Origin: Dolichospermum flos-aquae CCAP 1403/13F
GTDB lineage: Bacteria; Cyanobacteriota; Cyanobacteriia; Cyanobacteriales; Nostocaceae
Length of the DNA stretch: 64,000 bases
Direction: 5' to 3'
Assembly (NCBI RefSeq): GCF_012516395.1
Contig: NZ_CP051206.1
Span: 3,206,501 to 3,270,500 of the forward strand
In this document: piece by piece, positions 6,499-50,363 of the stretch
Numbering within the stretch: the stretch's first letter is position 1
Layout: the number at the start of each line of letters is the position of its first letter
The notes under the pieces: generated by a model
What the model saw: the letters and a program-made list of their open reading frames with translations, nothing else
The model's database searches: none
Told to the model about the DNA's origin: nothing
Made by a program: the position numbers and the translations under genes

Positions 6499-6834
6499 TT
6501 ATATAACTGCATAATCCGTATATTGCCGCATTTCCGGAGCTTGAAACCCCAACACAATATCTTCCTTTGCTACCCCCAGATCCACAAGTTCTTGGGCTAC
6601 TCTCATTTCCGTCATATTTTGCTCAATCCAAATCTTTCCTTGCTTAATATCCAAATGTAAAACACAACCATATACCCGCCGATGGCCATCCCATCCCACA
6701 TTCATGACCTGGTAATGGTCTTGTTTCGGATCAAAAACAGTGTAGCAATCTATCGACCCATTAGCGATGGGGATAGCAGCGTAATCTGTCAACAACGACT
6801 GAATTATATGCCGATAAGACTTTATGGTATCCAT
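6499..6834 (-). CDS. xisI: XisI-family protein
   Basis: A 111-aa protein matching the XisI family (named from the fdxN element excision controlling factor of Nostoc): IQSLLTDYAAIP, HYQVMNVGWDGHRRVYGC, VLHLDIKQGKIWIEQN and GFQAPEMRQYTDYAV are the usual blocks. It overlaps the upstream xisH by 13 bp, so the two are translated as a pair. There is no fdxN gene or recombinase nearby, so the name reflects family only. Pairs like this are very common in filamentous cyanobacteria and are suspected to act as a toxin-antitoxin or nuclease module. A second pair is at 40527-41266. Confidence 0.9.
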   Translation of the reverse strand: MDTIKSYRHIIQSLLTDYAAIPIANGSIDCYTVFDPKQDHYQVMNVGWDGHRRVYGCVLHLDIKQGKIWIEQNMTEMRVAQELVDLGVAKEDIVLGFQAPEMRQYTDYAVI

Positions 6835-7238
6835 TGTACAATTACCTCTTGAATCGGGTCATAAATAATTTGTTTAATTTGATATCTTTCTAATGAAATT
6901 TGGGCAAATTCCCGCTTAAAAAAAGTTTCATAAGCAACTACAGGCACAGCTAAATAGAGAATACGAGTTGGATCACTGATTTCTAAGGCCAGCCGATAAT
7001 TCAAAAACTGTCCTAACGCAGCATGGTAATCGGTTAGTGGTGAATCACTCAAAAAAGTTTTAATCTCAACTGCAATTTTTTCTTGGTCTCGCTCTGCTGC
7101 CAATAGTTGCTGGGCACCTAAGTCAATTTCAAACTTTGTTCCGCCTACTTCGAGTCGCAGGGGATCATCGGTTATCTGCCACTGCTCCTTTTCCAAAGCA
7201 ATTCTAACCACAGCATGAAATCTATCTTTAGCTGCCAT
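6822..7238 (-). CDS. xisH: XisH-family protein, PD-(D/E)XK nuclease-like
   Basis: A 138-aa protein of the XisH family, first gene of the xisH-xisI pair. The middle reads FEIDLGAQQLLAAERDQEKI followed by AVEIKTFL: Asp at about residue 59 and the Glu-x-Lys at about 77-79 have the spacing of a PD-(D/E)XK nuclease core. The C-terminus has YDPIQEVIVQWIP, conserved in the family. The second copy in the window (40850-41266) has the same core residues with many substitutions, so the two pairs are old paralogues and not a recent duplication. Confidence 0.88.
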   Translation of the reverse strand: MAAKDRFHAVVRIALEKEQWQITDDPLRLEVGGTKFEIDLGAQQLLAAERDQEKIAVEIKTFLSDSPLTDYHAALGQFLNYRLALEISDPTRILYLAVPVVAYETFFKREFAQISLERYQIKQIIYDPIQEVIVQWIP

Positions 7239-31750: not shown

Positions 31751-31939
31751 CTAACACCAAATCCGACCACGACGGAAAGGTTTATCAGGTTCAGTTTGTT
31801 GGGCTTTTTGTCTAGCCATTTCCTGCGACCAAAAACCATAATCTTCCAAACCAGTTGACAAAATATTACGTTTAATTTCTGCTGTTTGTTCGGGTTCTGG
31901 TTGACTCGAATTTGCGGGGGTTTTCTTTTGTTTACTCAT
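31751..31939 (-). CDS. acyC: Cyanobactin small protein, PatC/AcyC-like
   Basis: A 62-aa protein starting at ATG 31939 (MSKQKKTPANSSQPEPEQTA), with AGGAGTT as ribosome site a few bases upstream. It carries ILSTGLEDYGFWSQEMARQK and ends RRGRIWC. Small basic proteins in the third place of cyanobactin clusters are called PatC/TenC/TruC or AcyC; they are not needed for peptide production in known clusters. The assignment rests on order (A-B-C), size and a GLEDY-type phrase I recall from that family. Confidence 0.6.
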   Translation of the reverse strand: MSKQKKTPANSSQPEPEQTAEIKRNILSTGLEDYGFWSQEMARQKAQQTEPDKPFRRGRIWC

Positions 31940-31953
31940 AATTTTGATAACTC

Positions 31954-32157
31954 CTAAATTACACAACTGCAAGAAGATTTAATTTGCTGATAACTACGAT
32001 TTTGAAATGCAGCGGGGTCATTATAATTAGCACCATGTAATAAGTCCATGCGAATGCTAACTAAGTCCTCGACTCTACCATGAATGACATCAACAGAACG
32101 ATGAGGATAAATAATATCTGGTCTTTTTACCGGGGGGGAAAGTTTGGGTAATCTCAT
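31954..32157 (-). CDS. acyB: Cyanobactin small protein, PatB/AcyB-like
   Basis: Start at ATG 32157 (MRLPKLSPPVKRPDIIYPHR), two codons inside the TTG-initiated frame. The 67-aa product has a Pro-rich N-terminus with PPVKRP, a central VDVIHGRVEDLVSIRMDLLH and a C-terminus with two Cys (SSCSCVI). PatB/AcyB/McaB proteins are about this size and lie second in the cluster. Function unknown, conserved but dispensable in the patellamide system. It is 14 bp upstream of acyC and 225 bp downstream of acyA, a gap holding a repeat. Confidence 0.6.
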   Translation of the reverse strand: MRLPKLSPPVKRPDIIYPHRSVDVIHGRVEDLVSIRMDLLHGANYNDPAAFQNRSYQQIKSSCSCVI

Positions 32158-32216
32158 AATCAATTTTAGATTGTAGATTTTGGAAATTGATTTCTCATTT
32201 CCTCGTTTTTCGCGTT

Positions 32217-32325
32217 TCTCGTTCCCATACTCCGTATGGGAATGAATTCTAGAAGGCTCTGCCTTCTATTAAAGCAGAGTCAGAGCCTCTGTAACCGCAT
32301 TCCCAGTCAGAGACTGGGAACGAGA
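32217..32325. repeat. 109-bp dispersed palindromic repeat, intergenic copy
   Basis: Starts TCTCGTTCCCATACTCCG and ends AGACTGGGAACGAGA; inner palindromes surround GAAGGCTCTGCCTTC. The same repeat, 110 bp, sits inside the acyG coding region at 42454-42563 and is translated there. This copy separates acyA from acyB. Confidence 0.8.
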
Positions 32326-32382
32326 TAAACGAGATAAAAGACTTTGTTGGGTTGCGCTGTTGCTTAACCCAACCTACCACTA

Positions 32383-34359
32383 TTAATAAGGAGTAGACCA
32401 AGAACGGACTTCGCCCAAAGTAACAGGAATAATATCACTCACATCAATTGTAAACCGGAATAGCTTCTTCGCCCGACGACTATTTTCAGGGTCAAAGAAC
32501 TTCAATTTTACATCCCAACAATCGCTATCTAAACGACAGAAAGGACTTTTTTCTACTGTAATACTATCCAACTCCATACCCGTAGCCACAGCTTCCGCAA
32601 AGGTGGAAGCCGCTTGAAAAGCATTCGTAGAGGCAAAATTCAACGCCCTATCTTGGGAAGTTGTCCCCAAGTTGCGTAAATCATAATAAATGCGGCTGAG
32701 GAAACTACCCAAAGTCCGACGAATAGACTCTTCTTGGGCTTCTGTCGCTTGCGCTTGCACTGTCTGAATAGCAGCTTGAACTAAGGTGTTAACCTTCCAA
32801 CCATACATTCCCCGAATGTTGGGAACTTCAATTACTGGCACAACTTGACCAGAAAATAGTTTCACACTGCGTCCTGATAAAATACCGGGAATACTGACTC
32901 TCTCTACATAATTCTCGCTGTCTTCTGCTTGAATTTGTCCCGATAATAATTGTTGTAAAATAGCATAGACATCTCTGGCAAAAGCCCCACCTGGTTCTAT
33001 TGCATAGATAGGAGTTAATTCTAAATTCAATGTCCAAATTAAGGACTTAGCCTCAGAAAGATTATCTCCTAAATAATCTACCATCTGCCGCGCATCATAA
33101 GGGTTAGCGGGAATCGCTGTTCCGTCTATTTGTACCCCTGGCATTAATTGTTTAAAGGAGTCTCTTCTGGCTTCTGAACCAAAATCATAACCCAGTGTAC
33201 CTAAAGCATACACTAAGTTAACTTCAGCGAGATCGCTGGGTGCTTGACTAGCAGTAATGTAATTAGATGTACGATTTGACATGGTAGTAGATTGAGAATT
33301 GGATGAATTTGTGAAAGGTGCGGAAGTTGTCACAGCAGGAACTACTGGGAAAAATTCAGGGGGTATAAATTCCTCCGGGCTGGGTTCTGGTTCAGCACTA
33401 TTTGTAATCTCTGCACAACCGCAACCAGCAGCTTCAATACTGTCAACGGTTTCTACTGTATCTAATTCTTCGGACATTGTTCCTCCTGTAAAATATTGCA
33501 ATGCACCAGAAATATTTAATTTACCTAATAAACAGCGACTAATATCGTCTGTATCCTTATCTGTGCAAGGTATAGCAGTTTCTAATAAAACCGCTCTCAC
33601 CTTAGCGGGGTCGGGTGTTTCACCACGCTGAACTTGCAGACTTAGGAGTAAAGCAGCGACACCGGAAACAATAGGAGTAGCAAAGCTAGTACCACTGAGT
33701 TTTTGTGTCCCTCCCCCCGGTTTTGCCCCTAAGATGTGTTCTCCCGGTGCAAGAATGCCTTGGTTTTGATAGCTTTCTCCCCAGTTACTAAAGTCTATGG
33801 GTTTACCTTGGTCATTCATTGCCCCTACTGCTAATACGGTGGGTAAAGATGCGGGAACGTGCAAACATTCGCAACCATCATTACCAGCAGCAGCCACAAT
33901 TAAAACATTGTGATCTTTGCATAGTTGCACAGCCCTATCTAACCAGCCTTCTGCTTCACCATTATCAGTGAGTTGTCCAGCACTGACATTGATAATATGC
34001 GCTCCAGCATTGACGGCTTGTTCTATGGCGCGAGCTAGATCTAGTTGAGAAAGTTTCCTATTATTGTCACCAAAAATAGGGACGATTAACCCTCGACATT
34101 GGGGAGCTATTCCCCGTAATTCTGAAGAATTATGTTGACCAAATATGATGCTTGCTACATGAGTTCCATGTCCAGACATAGATCCATTAGCTGTCGCTTC
34201 TCCCTGAATAAGTGTTGGCAATCTTGTTAAATTTGCTGCATTAAAGCAATTATGAGATTGATCAACCAATCCGTCGAGTATAGCTACACATATTTGTGAA
34301 TCACCCTGTGTCAAGTTCCATAATTTGTGTATTTCCGTTTCAATTGAGGATTTTGGCAT
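32383..34359 (-). CDS. acyA: Cyanobactin maturation protease AcyA (PatA-like)
   Basis: A 658-aa protein. Residues 1-265 are a subtilisin-like domain with Asp29 (CVAILDGLVD), His64 (SGHGTHVAS), oxyanion Asn160 and Ser225 (LSGTSFATP). The spacing between Asp and His is compact, as in PatA. A Cys- and Pro-rich linker (about 290-370) joins the C-terminal cyanobactin domain (about 380-658; LVYALGTLGYDFGSEARRD to VTLGEVRSWSTPY), shared with AcyG. PatA-type proteases cut between leader and core of the precursor. Start ATG 34359. It heads a minus-strand unit acyA-acyB-acyC pointing away from the precursors. Confidence 0.92.
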   Translation of the reverse strand: MPKSSIETEIHKLWNLTQGDSQICVAILDGLVDQSHNCFNAANLTRLPTLIQGEATANGSMSGHGTHVASIIFGQHNSSELRGIAPQCRGLIVPIFGDNNRKLSQLDLARAIEQAVNAGAHIINVSAGQLTDNGEAEGWLDRAVQLCKDHNVLIVAAAGNDGCECLHVPASLPTVLAVGAMNDQGKPIDFSNWGESYQNQGILAPGEHILGAKPGGGTQKLSGTSFATPIVSGVAALLLSLQVQRGETPDPAKVRAVLLETAIPCTDKDTDDISRCLLGKLNISGALQYFTGGTMSEELDTVETVDSIEAAGCGCAEITNSAEPEPSPEEFIPPEFFPVVPAVTTSAPFTNSSNSQSTTMSNRTSNYITASQAPSDLAEVNLVYALGTLGYDFGSEARRDSFKQLMPGVQIDGTAIPANPYDARQMVDYLGDNLSEAKSLIWTLNLELTPIYAIEPGGAFARDVYAILQQLLSGQIQAEDSENYVERVSIPGILSGRSVKLFSGQVVPVIEVPNIRGMYGWKVNTLVQAAIQTVQAQATEAQEESIRRTLGSFLSRIYYDLRNLGTTSQDRALNFASTNAFQAASTFAEAVATGMELDSITVEKSPFCRLDSDCWDVKLKFFDPENSRRAKKLFRFTIDVSDIIPVTLGEVRSWSTPY

Positions 34360-34843
34360 TTAATTTGCTAATTATCTGCTTAAACATCTATTTTGCGCCA
34401 TAAATATATATTTTATGACATTTTTATTACGATTGTGCTTCTAGAACACAAAAGTAATTGTTATATTATTCGGCTGAAATGTCAACTCAATTTACATATT
34501 TTAACGGATATAATTTTTTCTTATGTCAAAAAAAAAAACGGTTTTAGTAAGTGTTTATTTTCTCCTGTGCTGTGGATGAAAATCAGTATTTACAAATACT
34601 TGACGGGAGGAGATAGTGATTTCCGCTTCACGGAAATATCAAGCATACAGGAGTGTTAACAACCTGATTTACTATAAGTAATTTTTATTAATAAGGTCTT
34701 GCGTTGAATCATAATTGGCTGTACTATCAGAATCAGGGTAGCTTCACTTAGCCTACTGATTAGTAATTGCACTTTTTATCATCTCATGGTAAGTAGTTGC
34801 ATTGATTATTCTGAAAAATTCACATTAGTTAATACTAAAACTC
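34360..34843. promoter_or_regulatory. Spacer between acyA and the precursor repeat units
   Basis: About 480 AT-rich bases between divergently read acyA and acyE1. One frame of 88 codons exists but it has no start context or recognisable content and is discarded. The hairpin-like phrase GATTTCCGCTTCACGGAAATC occurs at 34617-34637. Promoters for acyA and for acyE must lie in or beside this zone. Confidence 0.4.
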
Positions 34844-35015
34844 TACCTCTCCCTAACCCTCTCCTAAGAGGAGAGGGAACAGGAAAAAAACTTGAGAATT
34901 TAAAGAGTTTAAAGCCTCTCTCCTTGTAGGAGAGAGGTTTTATATAAAGCTTCTGGTGAATCACAACTCGTTAAATTACCCTTCAACACCAATTTAACGC
35001 CTTCACCAAACCAGT

Positions 35016-35034
35016 CTTCTTCATCAGGAAGAAG
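35016..35034 (+). promoter_or_regulatory. 5' leader hairpin of acyE1
   Basis: CTTCTTC and GAAGAAG pair around loop ATCAG, 31 bases before the start codon. Unit 2 keeps the stem exactly while its loop reads ATAAT (35527-35545). Conserved stem with variable loop points to an RNA structure in the leader. The Shine-Dalgarno AAAGGAAA follows. Confidence 0.55.
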
Positions 35035-35065
35035 TTAAACGAACAAACAAAAAGGAAAACACACC

Positions 35066-35221
35066 ATGACTAAGAAGAACATCCGCCCCCAACAAGTTGC
35101 TCCCGTAGAACGCGAAACCATCTCTACTGCCAAGGATCAAAGCGGTCAGGTTACAGCCCGTTCATGGAGAGATCCAAGTGAGGATACGTTCGCTCCTTTT
35201 GCGGGCGACGACGCGGAGTAA
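35066..35221 (+). CDS. acyE: Anacyclamide-type cyanobactin precursor 1
   Basis: A 51-aa peptide too short for most gene callers. Leader residues 1-29 (MTKKNIRPQQVAPVERE then ISTAKDQSGQV), a short N-terminal recognition piece TAR, a predicted core SWRDPSEDTFAP (residues 33-44) and the follower FAGDDAE. Anacyclamide precursors have this leader, a core ending in Pro, and FAGDDAE at the end. The predicted product is a 12-residue macrocycle. The core has Trp but no Cys, so no thiazole is expected; Ser and Thr stay unmodified since the cluster lacks a heterocyclase. Ribosome site AAAGGAAA lies at the right distance. Confidence 0.93.
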   Translation: MTKKNIRPQQVAPVERETISTAKDQSGQVTARSWRDPSEDTFAPFAGDDAE

Positions 35222-35254
35222 GTCACCCCATTCTACCACTCACCTCAAAAAATA

Positions 35255-35350
35255 TCAAAAGTCTATTTCTACATCCCTTGGCGCACGGTTTGCCTCGATG
35301 AATTGACGGACAACCCTTGTCAGTTCGGGGGTTTATCACTGGCACGGGGG
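35255..35350 (-). pseudogene. Duplicated 3' tail of the RAYT transposase gene
   Basis: The minus strand reads PELTRVVRQFIEANRAPRDV then EIDF and a stop, matching the C-terminus of the transposase at 35752-36543 (EVTEVVRQFIAANRAPRDV-EIDF). Only about 30 codons are present because the tandem duplication ended inside the gene. It marks the right border of unit 1. Confidence 0.9.
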
Positions 35351-35526
35351 ATATGAATTAAGATACCTCTCCCTAACCCTTTCCTAAGAGGAGAGGGAAC
35401 AGGAAAAAAAATTGAGAATTTAAAGCCTCTCTCCTACAAGGAGACAGGTTTTATATAAAGCTTCTGGTGAATCACAACTCGTTAAATTACCCTTCAACGC
35501 CAATTTAACGCCTTCACCAAACCAGT

Positions 35527-35545
35527 CTTCTTCATAATGAAGAAG
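35527..35545 (+). promoter_or_regulatory. 5' leader hairpin of acyE2
   Basis: CTTCTTC and GAAGAAG with loop ATAAT, the counterpart of 35016-35034. The stem is identical to unit 1 while the loop has changed. It lies 32 bases before the ATG. Confidence 0.55.
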
Positions 35546-35577
35546 TTAAACGAACAAACAAAAAGGAAAAACACACC

Positions 35578-35718
35578 ATGACTAAGAAGAACATCCGCCC
35601 CCAACAAGTTGCCCCCGTAGAACGCGAAATCATCTCCACTGCCAAGGATCAAAGCGGTCAAGTGGAAGCCCAGCTGTTCTGGTTTAGTCCTCCTTTTGCG
35701 GGCGACGACGCAGAGTAA
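35578..35718 (+). CDS. acyE: Anacyclamide-type cyanobactin precursor 2
   Basis: A 46-aa peptide with almost the same leader (EIIS for ETIS), recognition piece EAQ, predicted core LFWFSPP (residues 33-39) and follower FAGDDAE. The core is seven residues and ends in Pro, at the short end of the range known for anacyclamides. It is very hydrophobic, in contrast with the charged 12-residue core of precursor 1. The border between EAQ and the core follows the usual leader end (AQ); one residue either side cannot be excluded. Its 3' end faces the end of the RAYT gene 33 bp away. Confidence 0.93.
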   Translation: MTKKNIRPQQVAPVEREIISTAKDQSGQVEAQLFWFSPPFAGDDAE

Positions 35719-35751
35719 GTCACCTCATTCTACCACTCACCTCAAAAAAGG

Positions 35752-36543
35752 TCAAAAGTCTATTTCTACATCCCTTGGCGCACGGTTCGCAGCGATGAAT
35801 TGACGGACAACCTCTGTCACTTCGGGGGTTTCGGATACCTGGCACGGGGGGGGTGGCGGAAAACCGGACTTAGATTTTTTGGGGTTGGTGGTTGAACCCT
35901 GATTTGTGAGATGAACCCCAGCCAACAGCTTACTACCCCAGTGGTATTGGGTTGGGGTCTTCTCCTTGGGTTTATACTTTTGGCAGAAGCCTTTATACTT
36001 TTTGGCACATTCTTCTAAGCTGTTTCCCAGTCGTAAAAAAGCCGGATGCCATTGAGTTAAACCATCATCAGTTAAGCGTTCATAACTGCCATAATTGCTG
36101 AAGTCATAGAAAAAACTCTGGCGCATTTTGGCAGCTTTAGGATTAGCGTGAATGTAGCGTAAAGTATTTAATGCTCTTTCTTTGTCTGAAGCAGGAAACC
36201 CATCACAGTAATATCGTTTCTCCCAAAAGCTTGTGGTGAGCGAAGTCGAACCATGTCCCGTTCTTCTTAACATCCGATTGAAACACATCGCCGTGTACCA
36301 ATTCAGGAAGTGCATAATTTTGGGTAACTCTTCTGGCTGTTTAGGTGCAATCAAATAATGAACATGATTTGACATAATGCACAAAGCATAAAGCTGGAAA
36401 TTGTATTTATCCAAAGCCTTTTTTATCGCATAAAGAAACACTTCCCGACATTCACGCCGTGATAGCTTAAATTCACGGTTATTGCAACGGGTTGTTATGT
36501 GATAAGAGTATCCGGGTTTGATATTTCGAGGTTTTCTGGGCAT
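35752..36543 (-). CDS. RAYT (REP-associated tyrosine transposase, TnpA_REP)
   Basis: Start at ATG 36543 (MPRKPRNIKPGYSYHITTRC); the frame 24 bases longer has a poorer start. The protein has the HUH pair in IMSNHVHYLIAP, and the catalytic Tyr in FLNWYTAMCFNRMLRR. FWEKRYYCDGF and LRYIHANPKAAKM are family blocks. These single-copy enzymes act on REP-like palindromes. A segment HGSTSLTT in front of FWEKRYY comes from a dispersed 'ggttcgacttcgctcacc' repeat inserted in frame. The last 30 codons are duplicated at 35255. It lies between acyE2 and acyF, on the opposite strand. Confidence 0.88.
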   Translation of the reverse strand: MPRKPRNIKPGYSYHITTRCNNREFKLSRRECREVFLYAIKKALDKYNFQLYALCIMSNHVHYLIAPKQPEELPKIMHFLNWYTAMCFNRMLRRTGHGSTSLTTSFWEKRYYCDGFPASDKERALNTLRYIHANPKAAKMRQSFFYDFSNYGSYERLTDDGLTQWHPAFLRLGNSLEECAKKYKGFCQKYKPKEKTPTQYHWGSKLLAGVHLTNQGSTTNPKKSKSGFPPPPPCQVSETPEVTEVVRQFIAANRAPRDVEIDF

Positions 36544-36587
36544 AAAAAACTTTAAATAAACAGGCATAAGGAACTTTAAATAAACAA

Positions 36588-37457
36588 ATGATTACCTACG
36601 ATAATTTCGTCACTGACAGTGAAATTAACCTAACTCATATTGGCAAGCACAAGCAAGTTTTTGAGATAGAAGACTATCTTTTTCCTTTAGGGCATTTTGA
36701 AAAATTAGTTCAAGGACAAAAAGATGCCATAATTGACTGTGCTTGTAAAATTGATCATGATAGACTTCATGCTGCTAGGTTCACTCTGACATGGACAAAA
36801 CCAGACGCTAAAAGCCAAATCAATGCAGCACTAAATTTTTTTAATGCTGTGGCTGCAAGAGTTGAAGTGAAGTTAAATTATCAGCTACTACATAAATTTT
36901 TAGGCAATAATTTCGACTTCAGTAAAGTTATTAAAGTGTTGATAGGAGTAGATGCCAGAAGAGAAGTCAAAGATTCACGTTTGAAACTGTTTATTTGGAT
37001 TGATAATTATTTAGAAAAAACAGAAACAGCAATTTCTTTGTGCGGTAACAGCCCAGAATTGCGATCAATCTTAACTAATAATAACTTGTTAATTGGTTTT
37101 GATTTTAGCTTGAATGGTAGTCATGAGATTGAAGTTTATCCAACTCTTTCTGCTGAGGAATTTGTCAGGGAAAATGTGCAGATACGACTTGCCAAAATAT
37201 TGCCTGCAAAGGCTTTAGAATTTCTAAAAGTCTGTCATTTGTTGCAAATTGGTTTTAGCCAAGCGAATGAGAGCAAAATTCTCTATTTTCATCCCACTGA
37301 TCACAATTACTTCGTTGATAATTTAGGAAATCATTTAGCTGATAGAGTTCATGCTTATTATAGACATCAAGCAGTGAGAGCTTTAGTAGTGTGTATTCCT
37401 GAAAGCGAGTTAATCAAAAGTTCAATTCAGAAATTAAATATGTATTATAATACCTAA
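36588..37457 (+). CDS. acyF: Cyanobactin prenyltransferase AcyF (PatF/LynF family)
   Basis: A 289-aa protein of the cyanobactin ABBA-type prenyltransferase family: LKVIKVLIGVDARREVKDSR-type centre (KVLIGVDARREVKDSRLKLF), LIGFDFSLNGSHEIEVYP, and a C-terminal DRVHAYYRHQAVRALVVCIP. Members add dimethylallyl or longer groups to Tyr, Ser, Thr or Trp of the macrocycle; AcyF of the anacyclamide pathway has been described as acting on the Trp indole nitrogen. Both predicted cores contain Trp and neither has Tyr, which fits. It starts 44 bp from the RAYT gene in the divergent direction. Full length. Confidence 0.9.
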   Translation: MITYDNFVTDSEINLTHIGKHKQVFEIEDYLFPLGHFEKLVQGQKDAIIDCACKIDHDRLHAARFTLTWTKPDAKSQINAALNFFNAVAARVEVKLNYQLLHKFLGNNFDFSKVIKVLIGVDARREVKDSRLKLFIWIDNYLEKTETAISLCGNSPELRSILTNNNLLIGFDFSLNGSHEIEVYPTLSAEEFVRENVQIRLAKILPAKALEFLKVCHLLQIGFSQANESKILYFHPTDHNYFVDNLGNHLADRVHAYYRHQAVRALVVCIPESELIKSSIQKLNMYYNT

Positions 37458-37467
37458 ATTCCTCATA

Positions 37468-37510
37468 TAACATCCTGTAAATCCTGAAGTCCTGGACATC
37501 CTGATTGGTG
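37468..37510. repeat. Dispersed 'CCTGGACATCCTGATTC' repeat (representative)
   Basis: About 40 bp of the form ATCCTGTAAATCC-TTAAATCCTGG-ATATCCTGATTCTGAC. I count about 13 copies in either orientation: near 11274, 16658, 37468, 37736, 38709, 39619 (cut), 43684, 43975, 47144, 47218, 48121 (deleted), 48189 and 50496. All are intergenic and most lie between 37 and 51 kb. It is imperfectly self-complementary (TCCAGGAT/ATCCTGGA). Confidence 0.8.
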
Positions 37511-37545
37511 ACAATTTCATTTTCTGCAAAATTTGAGCAAATTTT

Positions 37546-37661
37546 ATGATATCTACTACTGCAATTTCTCCCATCTTAACTATTCCTCCCCTAGAAAACG
37601 GCGACAAATTAACCCGTCATGAAATAGTAGAAATTGCTGCTTCTAGTGATGATATCTATAG
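37546..37661 (+). pseudogene. Uma2 gene remnant, internally deleted
   Basis: The first 26 codons (MISTTAISPILTIPPLENGD...LTRHE) are the same as the start of the Uma2 gene at 38785. The frame then jumps to IVEIAASS, which is found about 120 codons later in that gene. The remainder has been replaced by a 'ttgggttaagcg' dispersed repeat. The 5' flank is duplicated as well (about 150 bp), so this is one end of a direct repeat around the HNH pair. Confidence 0.85.
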
Positions 37662-37846
37662 GTTAGATGTAGGTTGGGTTAAGCGACAGCGCAACCCAAC
37701 AACATTAAATCACAAAATCACCGAAATGTTGGGTAACATCCTGTAAATCCTTAAATCCTGGAAATCCTGATTCAGACAAAAAAATAACAAAGAAATTCAT
37801 CCCAAACATCATCTAAACTATAATTGTAATAAAGAATTTTATTTTT

Positions 37847-38242
37847 ATGACAATTCCCATAACTATTAACTTACCCGAAAGTTTAGCTGCTTCTGTCGAA
37901 CGTCTTGGAGAAGCAACAGCGCGAGAGATATCAGATGTTTTACTTGACACCCTAGAAATAGTATTACCTACCTTAGATAATCTCTCAGAAATGAGCATTA
38001 ATTCAAGCATTCCTGATATTTCCGATCAGGAAGTTCTAGAATTAGCTAATTTAAAAATGGATGTAGTGCAAAATCAACGCTTGGGAGAACTACAAGCTAA
38101 AGGAAAAAATACCGGTTTAACAGCAGGAGAACGTTATGAATTATTAATTTTAATGTCCCTTTATCAAATGGGACAATTAAGAAAATCTGAAGGTTTAGCC
38201 GAAGCTGTTAAACGGGGAATAAAAATTCCTTTATCACCATGA
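37847..38242 (+). CDS. Hypothetical partner of the HNH protein (antitoxin-like)
   Basis: A 131-aa acidic protein (MTIPITINLPESLAASVERL...) ending in KRGIKIPLSP. Its stop overlaps the ATG of the HNH gene by four bases (ATGA), so they are co-translated. The N-terminal strand followed by helices resembles ribbon-helix-helix antitoxins. No known domain is sure. The context suggests a two-gene unit, but nothing in sequence proves toxin or antitoxin roles. Confidence 0.6.
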   Translation: MTIPITINLPESLAASVERLGEATAREISDVLLDTLEIVLPTLDNLSEMSINSSIPDISDQEVLELANLKMDVVQNQRLGELQAKGKNTGLTAGERYELLILMSLYQMGQLRKSEGLAEAVKRGIKIPLSP

Positions 38243-38658
38243 GTTCTCTATCTGAAACCATACGCCAAAAAGTGAGAGAACGGGCAGAAAATCGCTGTGA
38301 GTATTGCCTTAGTCATCAAGATTATATTATGGGTAGATTGCAAATTGACCATATCCAACCTGTAGCTAAAGGAGGAGATGATACAGAAGATAATCTCTGT
38401 TTAGCGTGTGAATTATGTAATCAATACAAATGGACACAAACTGAGAATTTAGATCCTAAATCTGGTGAAATAGTTTCTCTATTTAATCCTCGTCAACAAC
38501 AATGGCAAAAACATTTTACTTGGAGTCCAGAGGGGACAGAAATTATCGGTCTGACAGCCTGTGGTCGTGCTACAATCGGGGCGTTGAGATTGAATAATAG
38601 TTTAGCTGTTACTGTGCGTAAAAATTGGGTTAAAGCAGGTTGGCATCCACCAAATTAA
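38239..38658 (+). CDS. HNH endonuclease
   Basis: A 139-aa protein with a complete HNH zinc fold: CEYCLSHQDYIMGRLQIDHI (first Cys pair and the Asp-His), KGGDDTEDNLCLACELCNQY (Asn and second Cys pair). HNH proteins cut DNA or nick it; roles range from restriction and homing to toxin action. It overlaps the preceding small gene by four bases. Similar small HNH proteins are widespread in filamentous cyanobacteria without a proven function. Confidence 0.88.
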   Translation: MSSLSETIRQKVRERAENRCEYCLSHQDYIMGRLQIDHIQPVAKGGDDTEDNLCLACELCNQYKWTQTENLDPKSGEIVSLFNPRQQQWQKHFTWSPEGTEIIGLTACGRATIGALRLNNSLAVTVRKNWVKAGWHPPN

Positions 38659-38784
38659 TCGCAATCAATTATGAGCAAAAGTTATCATCCAAACCCAAAT
38701 TACCCATATAACATCCTGTAAATCCTTAAATCCTGGACATCCTGATTCTGACAATTTCATTTTCTGCAAAATTCGAGCAAATTT

Positions 38785-39468
38785 ATGATATCTACTACTG
38801 CAATTTCTCCCATCTTAACTATTCCTCCCCTAGAAAACGGCGACAAATTAACCCGTCATGAATTTGAACGGCGTTATCATGCCATGCCGAATCTCAAAAA
38901 AGCCGAATTAATTGAAGGAGTAGTTTACGTGGCATCACCATTAAGAATCAAAAGTCATGGAGAACCCCATGCTTATATTATGACTTGGCTGGGAGTTTAT
39001 AAAGCAGCTACACCGGGCATAGGTTTCGCCGATAATGCCACAGTGCTAATAGATACAGATAACGAACCACAACCGGATGCTTTATTAAGAATTGAAACAG
39101 GAGGACAATCAAGAATAAATAAAGATGATTATGTAGAAGGTGCGCCAGAATTAATAGTAGAAATTGCTGCTTCTAGTGCTTCCTATGATTTACATGAAAA
39201 ACTCAAAGTTTATCGTCGTAATCAAGTCCAAGAATATTTAATCTGGCGAGTTTATGACCATCAATTTGATTGGTTTAGATTACAACAAGGGGAGTATATT
39301 CAACTTCAAGCCAATGCAGATAATATAATTTGTTCCCAAATATTCCCCGGTTTATGGTTAGATAAAATAGCATTATTAGGAGGAGATTTAGGTACAGTAT
39401 TAGCTGTTTTGCAGCAGGGTTTAGCAAGTCCAGAACATGAGAATTTTATTAGTAGATTATCTAGTTAA
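38785..39468 (+). CDS. Uma2-family endonuclease-like protein
   Basis: A 227-aa Uma2/DUF820 protein with LTRHEFERRYHAMPNLKKAE, LIEGVVYVASPLR, the acidic blocks EPQPDALLRI and APELIVEIAASSASYDLHEK, and ending PEHENFISRLSS. Predicted PD-(D/E)XK-like fold. It is close to the Uma2 at 62232 (similar length and blocks) and its start is duplicated at 37546. The stop codon lies within the end of a MITE (39466-39618), so the MITE's TAA supplies the stop. Confidence 0.88.
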   Translation: MISTTAISPILTIPPLENGDKLTRHEFERRYHAMPNLKKAELIEGVVYVASPLRIKSHGEPHAYIMTWLGVYKAATPGIGFADNATVLIDTDNEPQPDALLRIETGGQSRINKDDYVEGAPELIVEIAASSASYDLHEKLKVYRRNQVQEYLIWRVYDHQFDWFRLQQGEYIQLQANADNIICSQIFPGLWLDKIALLGGDLGTVLAVLQQGLASPEHENFISRLSS

Positions 39469-39618
39469 GTAGGTTGGCGTTGAAAATTGTCGTTATGGCA
39501 AGAGGCAAGAGGCAAGAGGCAAGAGGCAAGAGGCAAGAGGCAAGAGGCAAGAGTGAAGAGGGTTTGGGCGATTTTACGTTTCTTTACACAGTTTGGTTTT
39601 ATTGTGTTCACCTACTTA
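39466..39618. repeat. MITE-like element, copy 2, with heptamer array
   Basis: Same ends as 2625-2773 (TAAGTAGGT / ACCTACTTA). Inside are seven or so units of GCAAGAG starting near 39499. It overlaps the stop codon of the Uma2 gene. Confidence 0.7.
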
Positions 39619-39645
39619 GTCAGAATCAGGATATCCAGGATTTTT

Positions 39646-39842
39646 GGTGTCAACTTAACGTAAAACCCATAGCCCGACTGGGAATGAATTCCCAGTCTCA
39701 TAGCAAAAGTCATCTAAAGATGACTAAATAACCCAGAAAATTTTCAGTAAACTTTAGTTTAGTTTCGCTATTAGCCCGTAAATTCATTTCTGGGCGGGTT
39801 TGTCAGCCAACAGATAAGACATTTTTAGCCTAAGTTGACACC
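39646..39842. mobile_element. Deleted element with GGTGTCAACTTAACG ends
   Basis: Starts GGTGTCAACTTAACG and ends TAAGTTGACACC, like the element at 10238-10471. Its inside (about 39668-39808) is a different repeat, whose inverted copy lies at 61515-61670 with the phrase GTCATCTTTAGATGAC in both. It has no coding capacity. Confidence 0.55.
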
Positions 39843-39878
39843 TATGAGCATTGCTAAACCCCTATTGGTGACAATTAT

Positions 39879-40484
39879 CTAGTTAGCAGCAGTTACCATC
39901 CAAACTAAAATTCCTAAAATGACATCAACAGGAGGAAGGGGATAATCTGTAAAATCAATTGTTACAGTTTGTTCCGTTAATTGTAGAAATCGCCAAACAG
40001 TACCATTAGTGACGCTACCATAAATTGTAGGAATGGGTTGATTATTAATTTCATTGAATTTTTGAGCAGCAATCATTTCCGCAATACACTGGCCAATACC
40101 CGGATTTAAGTCTGATTTTTTGGCTTCCACAATCATAACTGCTGGTGCTTCCACTTCTAACTGTTCCGTTGAACGACTCAGAACAAAATCACAGACTCCA
40201 TTCAATCCTAAAGCCGAATCTACAGTAAAATCTGTACCAGAAAATAAACTAATTTTTCTTTGTAAAATCTTACGAACCTCTAGTAAAACCGGACTAATGA
40301 TTAACTCAGAACGTGCTTTTTCACTTCCTGTCGCTATAGCTAATGGTAAACTTTCTGCTAAAAAATCAGTCAGGGTTGCACTAGCAGCAATTGGTTGGAT
40401 TTCTGGCAGAAACTTTTTATTTTCAACGGTATTTATGCCAAAGGTTTGCTTAACTTTTTTGAGAGTAAAATCACTATATGACAT
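39879..40484 (-). CDS. PD-(D/E)XK nuclease-like protein
   Basis: A 201-aa protein with LGLNGVCDFVLSRS followed by APAVMIVEAKKSDLNPGIGQ: an Asp and an Glu-Ala-Lys separated as in PD-(D/E)XK nucleases. Upstream RSELIISPVLLEVRKIL is the helix preceding the core in such folds. Similar proteins without a fixed name are common in cyanobacteria. The gene is followed on the same strand by another xisH/xisI pair upstream, all reading away from acyG. Confidence 0.6.
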   Translation of the reverse strand: MSYSDFTLKKVKQTFGINTVENKKFLPEIQPIAASATLTDFLAESLPLAIATGSEKARSELIISPVLLEVRKILQRKISLFSGTDFTVDSALGLNGVCDFVLSRSTEQLEVEAPAVMIVEAKKSDLNPGIGQCIAEMIAAQKFNEINNQPIPTIYGSVTNGTVWRFLQLTEQTVTIDFTDYPLPPVDVILGILVWMVTAAN

Positions 40485-40526
40485 AATGTAAATATTTCCA
40501 AAAATGATGTAAAATCTATGTGAAAA

Positions 40527-40862
40527 TCAACCAACAGCAAAATCTGTATATTGTCTCACCAAAGGTTCATGAAATGCTAAAACAATATCTGATTTTGGCA
40601 CTCCTAATTTAACTAACTCATCTGCTATACCAATTTCAGTTCCATCATGTTGTATCCAAATTTTCTGATCTTTAATATCCAAATGCAAAACACAACCATG
40701 CTGCCGTTTTCTGTTTTTCCAACCCACATACATCAATTGATAATGATCACCAAAACTATCAAAAATCAATTGTTGTTCAATTTCATCTTTAGCTGAACCT
40801 AATTGAGCATATTCTGTGATCACTTGTTTGACATAATTGCGATATTGTTCTAGTTTTTCCAT
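40527..40862 (-). CDS. xisI: XisI-family protein, second copy
   Basis: A 111-aa XisI homologue: YVKQVITEYAQLG, DHYQLMYVGWKNRKRQHGCV, LHLDIKQ-type DIKDQKIWIQHD and AFHEPLVRQYTDFAVG. It overlaps its xisH by 13 bp as in the first pair. It diverges strongly from the copy at 6499 although the block order is the same. Confidence 0.9.
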   Translation of the reverse strand: MEKLEQYRNYVKQVITEYAQLGSAKDEIEQQLIFDSFGDHYQLMYVGWKNRKRQHGCVLHLDIKDQKIWIQHDGTEIGIADELVKLGVPKSDIVLAFHEPLVRQYTDFAVG

Positions 40863-41266
40863 GCTACAATTACCTCCTGAACTGGATCATAAATCATGAT
40901 TTTAAGTTGGGAACGCTGAACAACTGTTTTAATAAACTGCAATTGAAAGAAAGAGTAATAAATTCCTGAAGGAATAGCTAAATATAAAACTCGTTCTGGT
41001 TGTTGTTCTTCTAATGCCAAATGATAATTAAAAAATTGTCCAATGGCTTGATGAAATTGAGAAATATTAGATGTACCAATAAAACTCTTAATTTCCACCG
41101 CTATTTTTTCTCCTTCTCTTTCAGCAGCTAAAACTTGTTCCGCACCGAGATCAATATACATTTCCACATCACCAACTTCTATCCTTAAAGGATCATCTGT
41201 AATTACCCAACCTTCTTTTTCTAACCCTATCCTAACAGCATCATGAAAAACATCTTTAGCTGGCAT
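40850..41266 (-). CDS. xisH: XisH-family protein, second copy
   Basis: A 138-aa XisH homologue with MYIDLGAEQVLAAEREGEKI then AVEIKSFIG: Asp, Glu-x-Lys core of a PD-(D/E)XK fold, and YDPVQEVIVAWKN at the end. It starts 68 bp from the divergent acyG gene, so the two share a short promoter region. Its presence inside the cyanobactin locus is probably incidental cargo. Confidence 0.88.
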   Translation of the reverse strand: MPAKDVFHDAVRIGLEKEGWVITDDPLRIEVGDVEMYIDLGAEQVLAAEREGEKIAVEIKSFIGTSNISQFHQAIGQFFNYHLALEEQQPERVLYLAIPSGIYYSFFQLQFIKTVVQRSQLKIMIYDPVQEVIVAWKN

Positions 41267-41334
41267 TAACTTGATAAAAAATTAGACTTTTCACCCACAA
41301 TTATAACATCAATTACAACAACACAATCAAAACC

Positions 41335-43452
41335 ATGCCTAACCTTACCGACATCCCCGGAATTTCCCAAATTTGGACACGCACAAAAGGCGACCCCCGC
41401 ATTAAAATTGCTATCCTTGATGGTGCAGCCGACTTAGAACGTAGTTGTTTTCAAGGGGCAAAATTTAGTCAATTTAAACCCTATTGGGCAGAAGATATTG
41501 AACTTAACGAAGAATACTATTATTATCTCAATTTATCTTTAGAATTTAACCAACAACAAAAAGACAAAAAAGACGACCCCGACCACGATAAAGAAGAATC
41601 AAAAAAAGAACGAGAGGCATTTTTTGCACCTTTCCCTCCAGCTATTAGACAACGCATTGAATTATCCAGTCATGCTACTCACATTTCTAGCACTATCTTA
41701 GGACAACACGGTACACCAGCCCCTGGTATTGCCCCTTTATGTACAGCATTAAATATTCCTATTTCCTTCGCTAATGATGATTTTATTTCCCCTATCAACC
41801 TTACCCACGCTATTAATACCGCTTGGCAATGGGGAGCGAATATTATCCATATCGCTGCTTGTCACCCTACCCAAACCGGAGTAGCACCAGATTTATTTGC
41901 CCGTGCTGTGAAACAATGCCAAGATAATAATATGTTAATTGTTGCCCCAGGTGGTAACGATAAAGGTGAATGTTGGTGTATTCCCTCTCTTCTTCCTGGT
42001 GTGATTACAGTGGGTGCAATGCGAGATGATGGCCAACCGTTTAAATTTAGTAATTATGGCGGAGAATATCAACATAAAGGGGTAATGGCTAACGGTGAAA
42101 ATATTTTAGGCGCCCAACCGGGAACAGAAGAACCTATCAGACAAAAAGGGACTAGTTGCGCTGCACCCATTGTCACAGGTATTTCTGCTTTATTAATGAG
42201 TCTGCAATTGCAACGAGGAGAACAACCCAACGCTGAAGCAGTGCGGGAAGCGATTTTAAATAGTGCTATTCCCTGTAACCCGGAAGAAGTGGAAGAACCA
42301 GAACGCTGTTTATTAGGTAAGTTGAATATTCCCGGTGCGTTTCAATTATTGACGGGAGAAAAGTTAGAACCTCACCTCCAGCCCCTCTCCTATCAGGGAG
42401 TACAACAACCTCACCCCCAACCCCTCTCCTATGAGGAGAGGGGAGTAGGAATCTCTCGTTCCCAGGTTCTACCTGGGAATGCTACATTAGAGGCTCTGCC
42501 TCTCACTATACCGTCAGGCAGAGCCTTGGAGACGGCATTCCCAGTCGGAGACTGGGAACGAGAAATTCAAAGAAGTGAAATAACTCAAGGTGTCACCCCT
42601 AGTGCGGCTTCTAAATTGGTATATGCTTTAGGAACAATTGGTTATGATTTTGGTAATGAAGCCAGAAGGGACTCGTTTAAACAATTAATGCCAGCAGTGA
42701 ATATGGACGGGGCAATTATCCCTGCTAATCCCTATGATAGCCGACAAATGGTTGATTACTTGTCAGTAAATCCTACGGAAGCTAAACCTTTAATTTGGAC
42801 TCTCAACCAAGAATTAACTCCTATTTATGCTTTAGAGCCTGTAAGCGGTTTTGCCGCAGATATCTATGAAATCCTGATTTTGATGTTACAGGGACAAATT
42901 CAACCAGAAAACAGTGATGATTTTGTGGAACGGGTAAGTATACCTGCAAGGTTAACAGATAGAACTGTGGAGTTATTTTCTGGTCAGGTTGTGCCTGTAA
43001 TTAGTCTTACGAATACTAGGGGAATGTATGGCTGGAAAGTCAACAGTTTGGTAGATGCGGCTTTGCAAACTGTAATTACGGGAGAAACTGCACCAGCCCA
43101 AGAAATAGCTATGAGAAAGGCTTTGAGTAGTTTCTTAAATCGAGTATACTATGATTTGCAAAATTTAGGACAATTGGCAAAAGATCGAGCGTTGAATTTT
43201 TCTGTAACTAATGCTTTCCAAGCTGCTTCTAGTTTTTCTCAAGCTATTTCTACAGGGATGCAGCTTGATAGTATTGAAGTGGAAAAAAGTCCTTTTTGTC
43301 GGATTAATAGTGATTGTTGGGATGTGAAATTAAAGTTTTTTGACCCAGAAAATGGTCGCAGGGCTAAAAAGGTGTTTTTGTTTACCATTGATGTTAGTGA
43401 CAGAATTCCTGTGACTCTAGGTCAAGTCCGCTCTTGGTCTGTGCGGAAATAA
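41335..43452 (+). CDS. acyG: Cyanobactin macrocyclase-type protease AcyG (PatG-like)
   Basis: A 705-aa protein. The subtilisin-like domain has Asp29 (IKIAILDGAAD), His113 (LSSHATHISS), oxyanion Asn208 (PGGND) and Ser274 (KGTSCAAP). Compared with AcyA, there are about 50 extra residues between Asp and His, including a Lys/Glu/Asp-rich helical stretch. Such an insert (capping helices) marks the macrocyclase domain of PatG and sets its specificity for the follower. Residues about 343-412 are encoded by dispersed repeats; then comes the C-terminal cyanobactin domain (KLVYALGTIGYDFGNEARRD on). The N-terminal oxidase of some PatG proteins is absent, in line with no azoline-forming enzyme. Confidence 0.92.
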   Translation: MPNLTDIPGISQIWTRTKGDPRIKIAILDGAADLERSCFQGAKFSQFKPYWAEDIELNEEYYYYLNLSLEFNQQQKDKKDDPDHDKEESKKEREAFFAPFPPAIRQRIELSSHATHISSTILGQHGTPAPGIAPLCTALNIPISFANDDFISPINLTHAINTAWQWGANIIHIAACHPTQTGVAPDLFARAVKQCQDNNMLIVAPGGNDKGECWCIPSLLPGVITVGAMRDDGQPFKFSNYGGEYQHKGVMANGENILGAQPGTEEPIRQKGTSCAAPIVTGISALLMSLQLQRGEQPNAEAVREAILNSAIPCNPEEVEEPERCLLGKLNIPGAFQLLTGEKLEPHLQPLSYQGVQQPHPQPLSYEERGVGISRSQVLPGNATLEALPLTIPSGRALETAFPVGDWEREIQRSEITQGVTPSAASKLVYALGTIGYDFGNEARRDSFKQLMPAVNMDGAIIPANPYDSRQMVDYLSVNPTEAKPLIWTLNQELTPIYALEPVSGFAADIYEILILMLQGQIQPENSDDFVERVSIPARLTDRTVELFSGQVVPVISLTNTRGMYGWKVNSLVDAALQTVITGETAPAQEIAMRKALSSFLNRVYYDLQNLGQLAKDRALNFSVTNAFQAASSFSQAISTGMQLDSIEVEKSPFCRINSDCWDVKLKFFDPENGRRAKKVFLFTIDVSDRIPVTLGQVRSWSVRK
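42370..42450 (+). repeat. CCCCTCTCCTATGAGGAGAGGG repeats inside acyG
   Basis: Two adjoining copies of a 'cctcacccccaacccctctcc' type repeat are translated in frame as PHLQPLSYQGVQQPHPQPLS followed by YEERGVG. A related palindrome (CCCTCTCCTAAGAGGAGAGG) stands in front of both precursor genes. They form the first half of the repeat-derived linker. Confidence 0.8.
42454..42563 (+). repeat. 110-bp dispersed repeat translated inside acyG
   Basis: Copy of the repeat at 32217-32325 with ends TCTCGTTCCCAGG and GACTGGGAACGAGA. Within acyG it is read as SRSQVLPGNATLEALPLTIP through WEREIQ. Its length is not a multiple of three (110), so neighbouring sequence has adjusted the frame, and no stop codon occurs in the used frame. 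Confidence 0.85.
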
Positions 43453-44106: not shown

Positions 44107-45525
<1,419 letters not shown>

Positions 45526-48572: not shown

Positions 48573-50363
48573 TTATTTAGAAAACCGTTTGAAAAGCTCC
48601 GCGTATTCGTCAACTTTAATTTCTTCAATATTTGCACCAATACGTTGATAAAATTTTCCATCGTATGATACCGGCTTTTCTCCAGCTTTTAAACAAAATA
48701 TCAGTACACTTTTATCGTAATAATCAATTATTCTAATCTCTCTACCTATAGTATCTTTAACTGTTTGATGAATAGGTTGTGATTTAATTTGTTGAATTAT
48801 CCAGCGATAAAAATTATCAATATTTCCCTGTAATCTCTTTGCTTCATGTTCTATTCCTGTTATCTTAAAATTTCTATACTCTACTGGTTCAATTTTATAT
48901 AAAATTTTTATTCTTTTTGCTGTGTCATCATTATCTGCTACTCCAACACAAACATAACCAGTTGCACCAGGTGAATGATTTGCCATAGCAGTTAAAGTTA
49001 GAATTATTTTACTAAAACTTTCTTGATCAAATTGTCCTCTTCCATCTAGTTGTGTAAAACCTTGTTTAAAATCATATAAAGTTTGTTCTGTTTTTGATTG
49101 AGTTAGTAGAGTTTCAAATTCTGTTAACCATGAATCTTTAGCAGGATCATTATTATCTCTGATTTTAAAAAATTCTCTAATAATCCCTTTAACCTTGTTA
49201 ATATTATTTTTTTTATTTTGATATGCCCATCTTGGACCACTAGGAGTTTTTATCTCATCATTAATATTTTTTAATGCTTTTATTAATCCATCATAATTAG
49301 CTATTTCCATTTTATCCCTAACAACTAAATCGTAAAAACTTAAAAATATTACTTGAAAAGGACGAGGCATATATTTCAAATTATTTAAACTAATTAATTC
49401 ACTAAAATTTCTTTTTGATTCTTGTAATATCTCACGAATATGATTATAAATAATCATAAATTGTTTTTTAATATATTCAGGCTGTTTTAATACCAATGAG
49501 GTTTCTATTTCTTTCGATTTTTTACCATCTTTAAAGCCATAATATTCATCTAATAAAGAAGCACTACTGGGTGTCTCAGGTAACAGTAAATATGCAAGAA
49601 TATCAGCAACAATTTGTTCATCTCTTGACTCTCTCAGCATTTCTTTTGTTAAAATTTTATTTTTTACCCAGAAAATATCATCAACTTTAATACCATATTC
49701 CAGTTCTTTATTAGTAATACTAATTTTTTTCATATCATTTAAAAGAACAACATCTGAAGCTGATGCGTCTGATCTTATTTCACTAGAAATTACTCTTACT
49801 AAATTGGCAAATTTAGAAGTTGCCCCTGCTGAACGTAATTCCTGTTTTGATAAATGTTTACCATTAGAATTAATTCTTCTAAAAACTTCGTCTACTTTAT
49901 CATTATCATCGAAAGAATAAACAGAAAGTGGAAGAATATAACTGCCTATTATTTCACAATATTTTCTTTCAAGAACAGGAGTTTTTTGTAATAACTGTTG
50001 TTGATCTAATCTAGATTTTGATTCTATCATTGTTTGCAAATCAAAATATTTACCTTGAATATCAAATTCTCCCTCAATAAAGGCAGTAATAGCATTTAAT
50101 CTTTGCATTCCATCTATAATTTCAAATACAGATTTATTATCTTTTTCTGTTTCTGCTAATAAGATTATAGGAACGGGAAAACCTTGTAAAATTGAATCTA
50201 TAAATTCTCTTTTTTCTTCTATAGTCCAAACTAACTTTCTTTGGTATCTCCTATTAGCATAAAAGAGATTATTTACATAAAAATTATAAATTCGTTGTAC
50301 ACTTTCACTCCTAATTGAAAGTTCTATTTGAACAGGAGATGATTGAATGTTGCTTGTACTCAT
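48573..50363 (-). CDS. DUF262 (GmrSD/ParB-like) - AlbA_2 (Schlafen-type) fusion protein
   Basis: A 596-aa protein. The N-terminal domain (about 20-190) has RRYQRKLVWTIEEKREFIDS, LQGFPVPIILL and IIDGMQRLNAITAF, the DUF262 pattern with a ParB-like NTP/DNA site (the DGxQR motif), then FRRINSNGKHLSKQELRSA. The middle is helical. From about residue 415 there is an AlbA_2-like domain: TEQTLYDFKQGFTQ, LTLTAMANHSPGATGYVCVG and FYQRIGANIEEI. DUF262 occurs in the GmrS part of type IV restriction enzymes and in several phage-defence genes; AlbA_2 is a nucleic-acid-binding domain. The joint occurrence suggests a one-gene defence factor. AT-rich, unlike its core neighbours. No HNH nuclease domain (GmrD) is present. 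Confidence 0.75.
   Translation of the reverse strand: MSTSNIQSSPVQIELSIRSESVQRIYNFYVNNLFYANRRYQRKLVWTIEEKREFIDSILQGFPVPIILLAETEKDNKSVFEIIDGMQRLNAITAFIEGEFDIQGKYFDLQTMIESKSRLDQQQLLQKTPVLERKYCEIIGSYILPLSVYSFDDNDKVDEVFRRINSNGKHLSKQELRSAGATSKFANLVRVISSEIRSDASASDVVLLNDMKKISITNKELEYGIKVDDIFWVKNKILTKEMLRESRDEQIVADILAYLLLPETPSSASLLDEYYGFKDGKKSKEIETSLVLKQPEYIKKQFMIIYNHIREILQESKRNFSELISLNNLKYMPRPFQVIFLSFYDLVVRDKMEIANYDGLIKALKNINDEIKTPSGPRWAYQNKKNNINKVKGIIREFFKIRDNNDPAKDSWLTEFETLLTQSKTEQTLYDFKQGFTQLDGRGQFDQESFSKIILTLTAMANHSPGATGYVCVGVADNDDTAKRIKILYKIEPVEYRNFKITGIEHEAKRLQGNIDNFYRWIIQQIKSQPIHQTVKDTIGREIRIIDYYDKSVLIFCLKAGEKPVSYDGKFYQRIGANIEEIKVDEYAELFKRFSK

Follow-up and report, generated by a model that had tools for sequence, protein, structure and literature searches.

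What would a cyanobactin locus with two different precursor genes make, and how did it come by its parts? We examined this for the acy locus of Dolichospermum flos-aquae CCAP 1403/13F, a bloom-type cyanobacterium. The DNA analysed, called the window here, is a stretch of 64,000 nucleotides (C1:3206501-3270500) of the 5.22-Mb, two-contig genome; the locus runs within it from the outer end of acyC to the outer end of acyG (31751-43452), the limits that an earlier note, made from the letters alone, had also set. The answer that the sequence makes very probable is an intact anacyclamide-type cyanobactin cluster in which two precursors would be processed to two rings, with AcyF as the prenylating enzyme, and whose history would be one of duplication and exchange. 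The gene set named in the earlier note (acyA, acyB, acyC, two acyE, acyF and acyG) was borne out: in profile searches every named gene scored above its curated NCBIfam cut-off, and all were open and intact at the coordinates given there (Table 1).

The searches found A and G proteases, precursors, B and C proteins and an F enzyme, with no heterocyclase or oxidase, and by this gene content the cluster belongs to the anacyclamide-type (anacyclamide/piricyclamide) cyanobactins, an already known kind. Both precursors fit the type, with a TIGR04446 leader, a single core ending in Pro and the follower FAGDDAE. No further TIGR04446 match occurs anywhere in the genome, and chance is excluded as the source of these two because none of 14 control genomes gave a match. 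The limits of the predicted cores, SWRDPSEDTFAP and LFWFSPP, follow from fixed flanks, as in sphaerocyclamide: 32 residues of leader/recognition part, 7 of follower and a core of 12 or 7 add up to the 51 and 46 residues of the precursors, and the same flank sum gives the 47 residues of SphE, whose 8-residue core is backed by mass spectrometry, nuclear magnetic resonance and expression in Escherichia coli (PMC6162287). The flanks and the family matches support the core boundaries and the family proposed in the earlier note, and its interpretation that two different precursors would yield a 12-residue and a 7-residue cyclic peptide. Neither core string was found in a full-text literature search of 5.39 million papers, outside which lay figures, supplements and the main anacyclamide paper (Leikoski 2010); nor was either present among the precursors of other genomes compared, a sample comprising a subset of the order with one genome per species.

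Once acyE1 and acyE2 were expressed and translated, AcyA would cut behind the leader, after ...VTAR in AcyE1 and after ...VEAQ in AcyE2; AcyG would take off FAGDDAE and join the core ends, giving cyclo(SWRDPSEDTFAP) and cyclo(LFWFSPP); and AcyF would put on one C5 isoprene, most likely at Trp. The computed [M+H]+ of the core 1 ring is 1389.607 unmodified and 1457.670 with one prenyl group, and that of the core 2 ring is 875.445 and 943.508, respectively; the same script returned 918.472 for prenylated sphaerocyclamide, for which m/z 918 was reported (PMC6162287).

Both proteases carry Peptidase_S8 (PF00082), PatG_D and PatG_C domains (PF18047/PF18065; Pfam), and neither reading frame has an internal stop. 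AcyA has PatA-type proteases as its best matches and aligns over residues 10-305 with the solved N-terminal cyanobactin protease 4h6w (E 7e-145), whereas AcyG aligns over residues 7-341 with the PatG protease chains 4h6x/4aks (E 2e-98 and 4e-98) and over residues 423-703 with 4uvq. The motifs VAILDG, SGHGTH and GTSFA of AcyA and their counterparts IAILDG, SSHATH and GTSCA of AcyG, which we take to hold the catalytic triad, are in place. By analogy with PatA and PatG, of which the first removes the leader and the second cyclises (PMC4663559), AcyA would be the leader protease and AcyG the macrocyclase. In the acyG of locus L041, a 66-bp stretch that aligns to 42366-42431 recurs in additional copies at 39-bp steps; near this stretch the window acyG linker has PHPQPLSYEERG-like repeated residues. 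A dispersed, partly self-complementary repeat of about 110 bp occurs at 32215-32330, 42454-42565 and elsewhere in the genome (a 1250-bp query gave 73 matches, mostly to this repeat, at some places on both strands), and one copy (76%) falls inside acyG, in that part of its coding sequence which links the protease domain to PatG_D.

A heterocyclised product was considered and rejected. No PatD-type heterocyclase was found in the acy cluster, the Pfam search of AcyG gave no oxidase domain (S8, PatG_D and PatG_C only), and the sole YcaO match of the genome (C1:4361597-4362589, L179) lies 1.1 Mb away, all in line with the proposal that the rings are unheterocyclised. The YcaO gene has neighbours that read, as labels given without a search, as SagB-like and E1/ThiF-like open reading frames; this region is possibly a separate azole-type cluster for a ribosomally synthesised and post-translationally modified peptide (RiPP).

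Would both precursors be productive? Arg at P1, as in precursor 1, is rare and weighs against two rings: it occurred in 1 of 17 hand-picked precursors with hand-placed boundaries, where Q (7) and L (6) prevailed and S, T and C were also seen. One could suppose that acyE1, with its unusual VTAR site and charged core, is poorly processed or silent, leaving a single productive precursor, and in the L082 array some copies do end without the standard follower. We consider this unlikely, since leader and follower are complete in both window copies, identity between the two is 96.4% across 110 nt upstream and 84 nt of leader, and relatives also vary at P1.

The history of the two precursors would begin with the tandem duplication of an acyE unit. 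Two units of about 500 bp align end to end at 94.2% identity before the core and 92.2% after it (gaps not counted), whereas their core segments gave no sensible alignment. Two precursors are not in themselves unusual. Of 16 genomes of the genus, 5 encode precursors of this type: G012 has four, the window genome, G001 (Dolichospermum circinale AWQC310F, where they sit at the ends of two contigs) and G004 (Dolichospermum sp. LEGE 00240) have two each, and G005 has one. Matches occurred in 13 of 217 genomes of the family and in 52 of 388 genomes sampled evenly across the order; 30 of these 52 had two or more (some of them fragments). The arrangement was thus rejected as unique; several precursors per genome are common. 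Against the two-precursor reading stands the statement of a review that the acy cluster has one precursor gene in the strains then known (PMC4663559).

The second step would be the exchange of cores in place. In the window acyE2, and in G004 its second acyE, is the copy adjacent to the RAYT-like gene; the two share the leader variant EREI...VEAQ and are identical in 150 of 150 bases downstream of the core; the cores of these positional counterparts nevertheless differ (LFWFSPP vs SLQVVIYGGYIP). Upstream and leader are 97.4% identical, and other pairs are as close or closer, so that this measure does not single the pair out. For acyE1 the closest sequence is copy c of G012 (99.5% upstream and leader, 98.7% downstream), and the core there is INRRYLP. 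Since the flanks are kept and the core differs in positional counterparts, acyE cores appear to be replaced in place within constant flanks. Hypervariable cores were already known for the family (PMC4663559, PMC3428304).

As a third step, one prenyltransferase gene would have taken the place of another at a constant position, a slot next to the transposase gene. The window was compared with the same-genus loci L040-L044: identity was 96-98% in acyA, 98-100% in acyB, 91-95% in acyG (90-95% over all the same-genus loci), 95-97% in two open reading frames of 131 and 201 residues (o131 and o201), 87-92% in the RAYT-like gene, 98% in Uma2 (L041), 70-96% in acyC and 67-99% in xisH and xisI. The window AcyF and the F that fills this slot in L041, the D. 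circinale AWQC310F locus, share 39% identity. This discordance (39% vs 87-100% for most neighbouring genes) points to replacement, and exchange at the slot is the simplest account of the sequence: acyF appears to have been swapped for a distant version, a feature beyond what the earlier note saw. No earlier description of slot exchange of prenyltransferases was found in the literature searched, outside which lay Leikoski 2010.

The borders of the slot can be read from DNA alignment. By blastn, homology to L041 and L042 breaks off about 45 bp upstream of acyF. The match to L041 stops at 36543, the next one begins at 37468 with the start of Uma2 (a repeat of 38709 onward), and the sequences are collinear again near 37734; homology to L042 stops at 36544 and is back at 37649. 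Directly behind acyF lies a truncated second copy of the Uma2 start (84 nt, 99%) together with its upstream DNA (37452-37623 and 38693-38862), perhaps a trace of rearrangement at the slot. A RAYT-like gene also lies between E and F in L041, L046, L047, L048 and L050, and beside E in L042.

The occupants of the slot are distant from each other. The F of L041 aligns with solved DciF (9vtc) over 283 residues with zero differences, whereas the window AcyF lacks high identity to DciF and falls outside that type; its best solved relative is 8ye0 (E 8e-94, 317 bits), and at 164 bits to PirF (6pgm) and 160-161 bits to PagF it falls outside the PagF/PirF type as well. An intact F of the latter type (485 bits to PagF, 471 to PirF, 35% identical to the window AcyF) lies in G011 in the same surroundings as the window slot; G013 has a PagF/PirF-like F matching from residue 58 onward only, and G004 a 68-residue remnant that is 98.5-100% identical to the F of G011 and G013. 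Close similarity of PirF to the Anabaena sp. 90 AcyF is reported (PMC3428304), in agreement with the slot having a PagF/PirF-like type among its residents. Genome-wide, G005 and G012 gave no F match; in both, homology with the window is interrupted at identical positions (36041 and 37665), at repeated sequence. Altogether, three distant types of F, as genes or relics, are spread over five of seven same-genus loci, and the other two have no F; F fragments of G002 and a second F fragment of G013 were left out of this comparison. In L149 and L150 (the loci of G011 and G013), acyG, B, C and an F are kept, and acyA/acyE were not seen in the stretch read; these are probably decayed acy clusters.

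Could the low identity reflect fast divergence in place? Tailoring enzymes can evolve faster than proteases. The fully supported six-row clade that holds the window AcyF includes, besides L167 and L105, the three F genes of L143-L145, whose genomes are of the same family as the window genome but of other genera (45-47% identical); spanning as it does another family and other genera of the same family, the clade names no donor. The nearest F found, however, is that of L167, whose genome belongs to a different family of the order (62% identical), the F genes that D. circinale (39%) and G011/G013 (35%) have in this slot fall into other supported clades, and DNA homology to L041 and L042 ends short of acyF, all of which makes divergence in place very improbable. 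Base composition contributes less to the case for replacement: acyF has a G+C content of 33.3% compared with 42-46% for acyA, the acyE units, the RAYT-like gene and acyG, but the o131-to-Uma2 stretch (36.7%) and the window as a whole (38.1%) also lie below the proteases, which weakens the argument.

Which residue would AcyF prenylate? Each predicted core has one Trp and neither has Tyr, so that Trp, as the only indole or phenol residue common to both, is the likeliest acceptor. The AcyF of another anacyclamide pathway (A8P) is a Trp-N1 prenyltransferase (PMC10946513). We compared core composition by F clade. Forty loci had an F (best F per locus), and 37 were kept for the tree, leaving out L168, L172 and L173, where F lies in an open frame of more than 330 residues. 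Twenty of the 37 could be labelled, having readable cores with unequal counts of Trp-containing and Tyr-only cores (L090, with equal counts, received no label); precursors that were truncated or non-standard did not enter the counts, and L041 and L167 received one hand-added core each, both counting as Trp. The window AcyF falls in an 18-row clade (support 100/98) in which Trp-containing cores outnumbered Tyr-only cores in all nine readable loci, compared with 4 of 11 loci outside it (Fisher p 0.005).

Several points pull the other way. The 18-row clade was picked after the tree was seen, which makes the Trp association post hoc; parsimony of the labels needed 5 changes, and 113 of 500 label shuffles were as low or lower, which is not significant; two of the 20 labels rest on hand-added cores; and of the four cores read in L167, the nearest relative, only one has Trp. 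Some F enzymes prenylate Arg (PMC10946513, PMC9609003), and Anabaena sp. 90 has acyF, yet an isoprenoid was reportedly not found on its anacyclamide (PMC3428304). The AcyF allele also differs from those of other clusters of the genus, and "the" anacyclamide prenyltransferase is thus no sure guide. AcyF might then act on Arg (in core 1 only) or on Ser, or be inactive on these cores, the products being unprenylated or prenylated elsewhere than on Trp. Arg adjoins Trp in core 1 and Ser is present in both cores, F enzymes for Arg, Ser and Thr exist (PMC10946513), and some F-bearing clusters give peptides without isoprene (PMC3428304). Even the nearest relative found for AcyF shares only 62% identity with it, the structure table names no acceptor for 8ye0, and in the literature search (including PMC13290415 and PMC12715784) the acceptor specificity of 8ye0, DciF and SmiF was not found. 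We give this alternative substantial but lesser weight, because the acceptor-type aromatic residue that the two cores share is Trp, and none of the nine readable loci of the clade is without a Trp-containing core. With the statistical support mixed, Trp is, on balance, the residue that we would favour as the prenyl acceptor.

The closest proven cluster is sph of Sphaerospermopsis sp. LEGE 00249, which made its peptide in E. coli (PMC6162287). Like the window locus, it has A, B, C, E, F and G with no reported heterocyclase or oxidase, a transposase between E and F, and Uma2, hypothetical and XisI open reading frames between F and G, and its precursor length fits the same 32-residue leader part and 7-residue follower; unlike it, sph has one precursor (AQGVSYFP) with a product prenylated on Tyr, a residue that the window cores lack. 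An F of D. circinale AWQC131C shares 98% identity with SphF (PMC6162287); the window AcyF was compared with the F of AWQC310F (39%). The acy cluster of Anabaena sp. 90 shares the bidirectional gene set without acyD and cores of 7-20 residues with a conserved Pro, but has one reported acyE (PMC4663559, PMC3428304, PMC3542288), and the window AcyF is far from PirF, unlike the AcyF of that strain (PMC3428304). Microcystis piricyclamide clusters resemble the window locus in having one to four precursors per enzyme set and cyclic cores without heterocycles, and differ in their PirF-type enzyme, for which geranylation is reported (PMC3428304). Planktothrix pag (prenylagaramide) likewise has several precursor genes (seven) and no heterocyclase, but has other cores, and its products are O-prenylated on Tyr (PMC4663559).

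Table 1. Features of the acy locus (window positions, strand, and the match or comparison on which each is based).
Feature	Position	Strand	Basis
acyC, PatC/TenC/TruC family (unknown function)	31751..31972	-	TIGR04447, 69.4 bits (cut-off 30)
acyB, PatB/AcyB/McaB family (unknown function)	31954..32163	-	TIGR04220, 135.8 bits (cut-off 55)
acyA, putative leader-removing subtilisin protease, 658 aa	32383..34359	-	TIGR03895, 977.4 bits
Tandem unit 1: upstream stretch, acyE1, copy of RAYT gene 3' end	34844..35350	+	end-to-end alignment with unit 2
acyE1, precursor peptide, 51 aa	35066..35221	+	TIGR04446 anacyclamide/piricyclamide precursor, 81.0 bits (cut-off 35)
Predicted core 1, SWRDPSEDTFAP, residues 33-44	35162..35197	+	between 32-aa leader/recognition part and FAGDDAE
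Tandem unit 2: acyE2 and RAYT 3' end	35364..35850	+	aligned with unit 1
acyE2, precursor peptide, 46 aa	35578..35718	+	TIGR04446, 77.9 bits (cut-off 35)
Predicted core 2, LFWFSPP, residues 33-39	35674..35694	+	same flanks as core 1
RAYT/IS200-type transposase-like gene, between acyE2 and acyF	35752..36567	-	Y1_Tnp PF01797, 64.2 bits (cut-off 23)
Variable PRENYLTRANSFERASE slot (prenyltransferase): DNA without nucleotide-level counterpart in compared same-genus loci	36544..37467	.	blastn
acyF, putative peptide prenyltransferase, 289 aa, GC 33.3%	36588..37457	+	TIGR04445, 287.7 bits (cut-off 140)
acyG, putative macrocyclising subtilisin protease, 705 aa	41335..43452	+	TIGR03895, 885.9 bits

Seven more plausible genes lie within the interval: the RAYT-like transposase gene (61 bits to NF047646, under that model's cut-off of 80), o131, HNH, Uma2, o201, XisI and XisH. 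Two further open reading frames of at least 110 residues, one antisense to acyA and one antisense to o201, are probably no genes. The window has two XisI/XisH pairs (PF08869, PF08814), at 40527-41266 and 6499-7238, the first of them inside the acy cluster between F and G, a position that it also has in relatives. Beyond the cluster, a P-type ATPase open reading frame of 472 residues (44107-45525) stops inside its Cation_ATPase domain match and is possibly truncated, and a protein of 596 residues (48573-50363) combines a GmrSD N-terminal domain with a Schlafen AlbA_2 domain. Plasmid or viral copies of the locus were considered and rejected: a plasmid collection gave no megablast match to 34400-37500, and no viral contig encoding a relative of the acy precursors was found.

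The locus enlarges a family of simple RiPPs, amenable to expression in E. coli, by two predicted ring peptides, and its AcyF is a candidate new peptide-prenylating biocatalyst. Tentatively, and short of what we would expect to hold, the acy locus of the genus may be built for exchange at two levels, that of the cores and that of at least three distant prenyltransferase types at the RAYT-side slot, so that strains with near-identical proteases would make differently lipidated rings; the window AcyF would then be an uncharacterised Trp-directed type matched to Tyr-free, Trp-containing cores. Closely alike loci in which the prenyltransferase is different or missing at one place amount to a natural experiment, and this slot set would allow a direct test of how the acceptor choice of the prenyltransferase goes with hypervariable cores.

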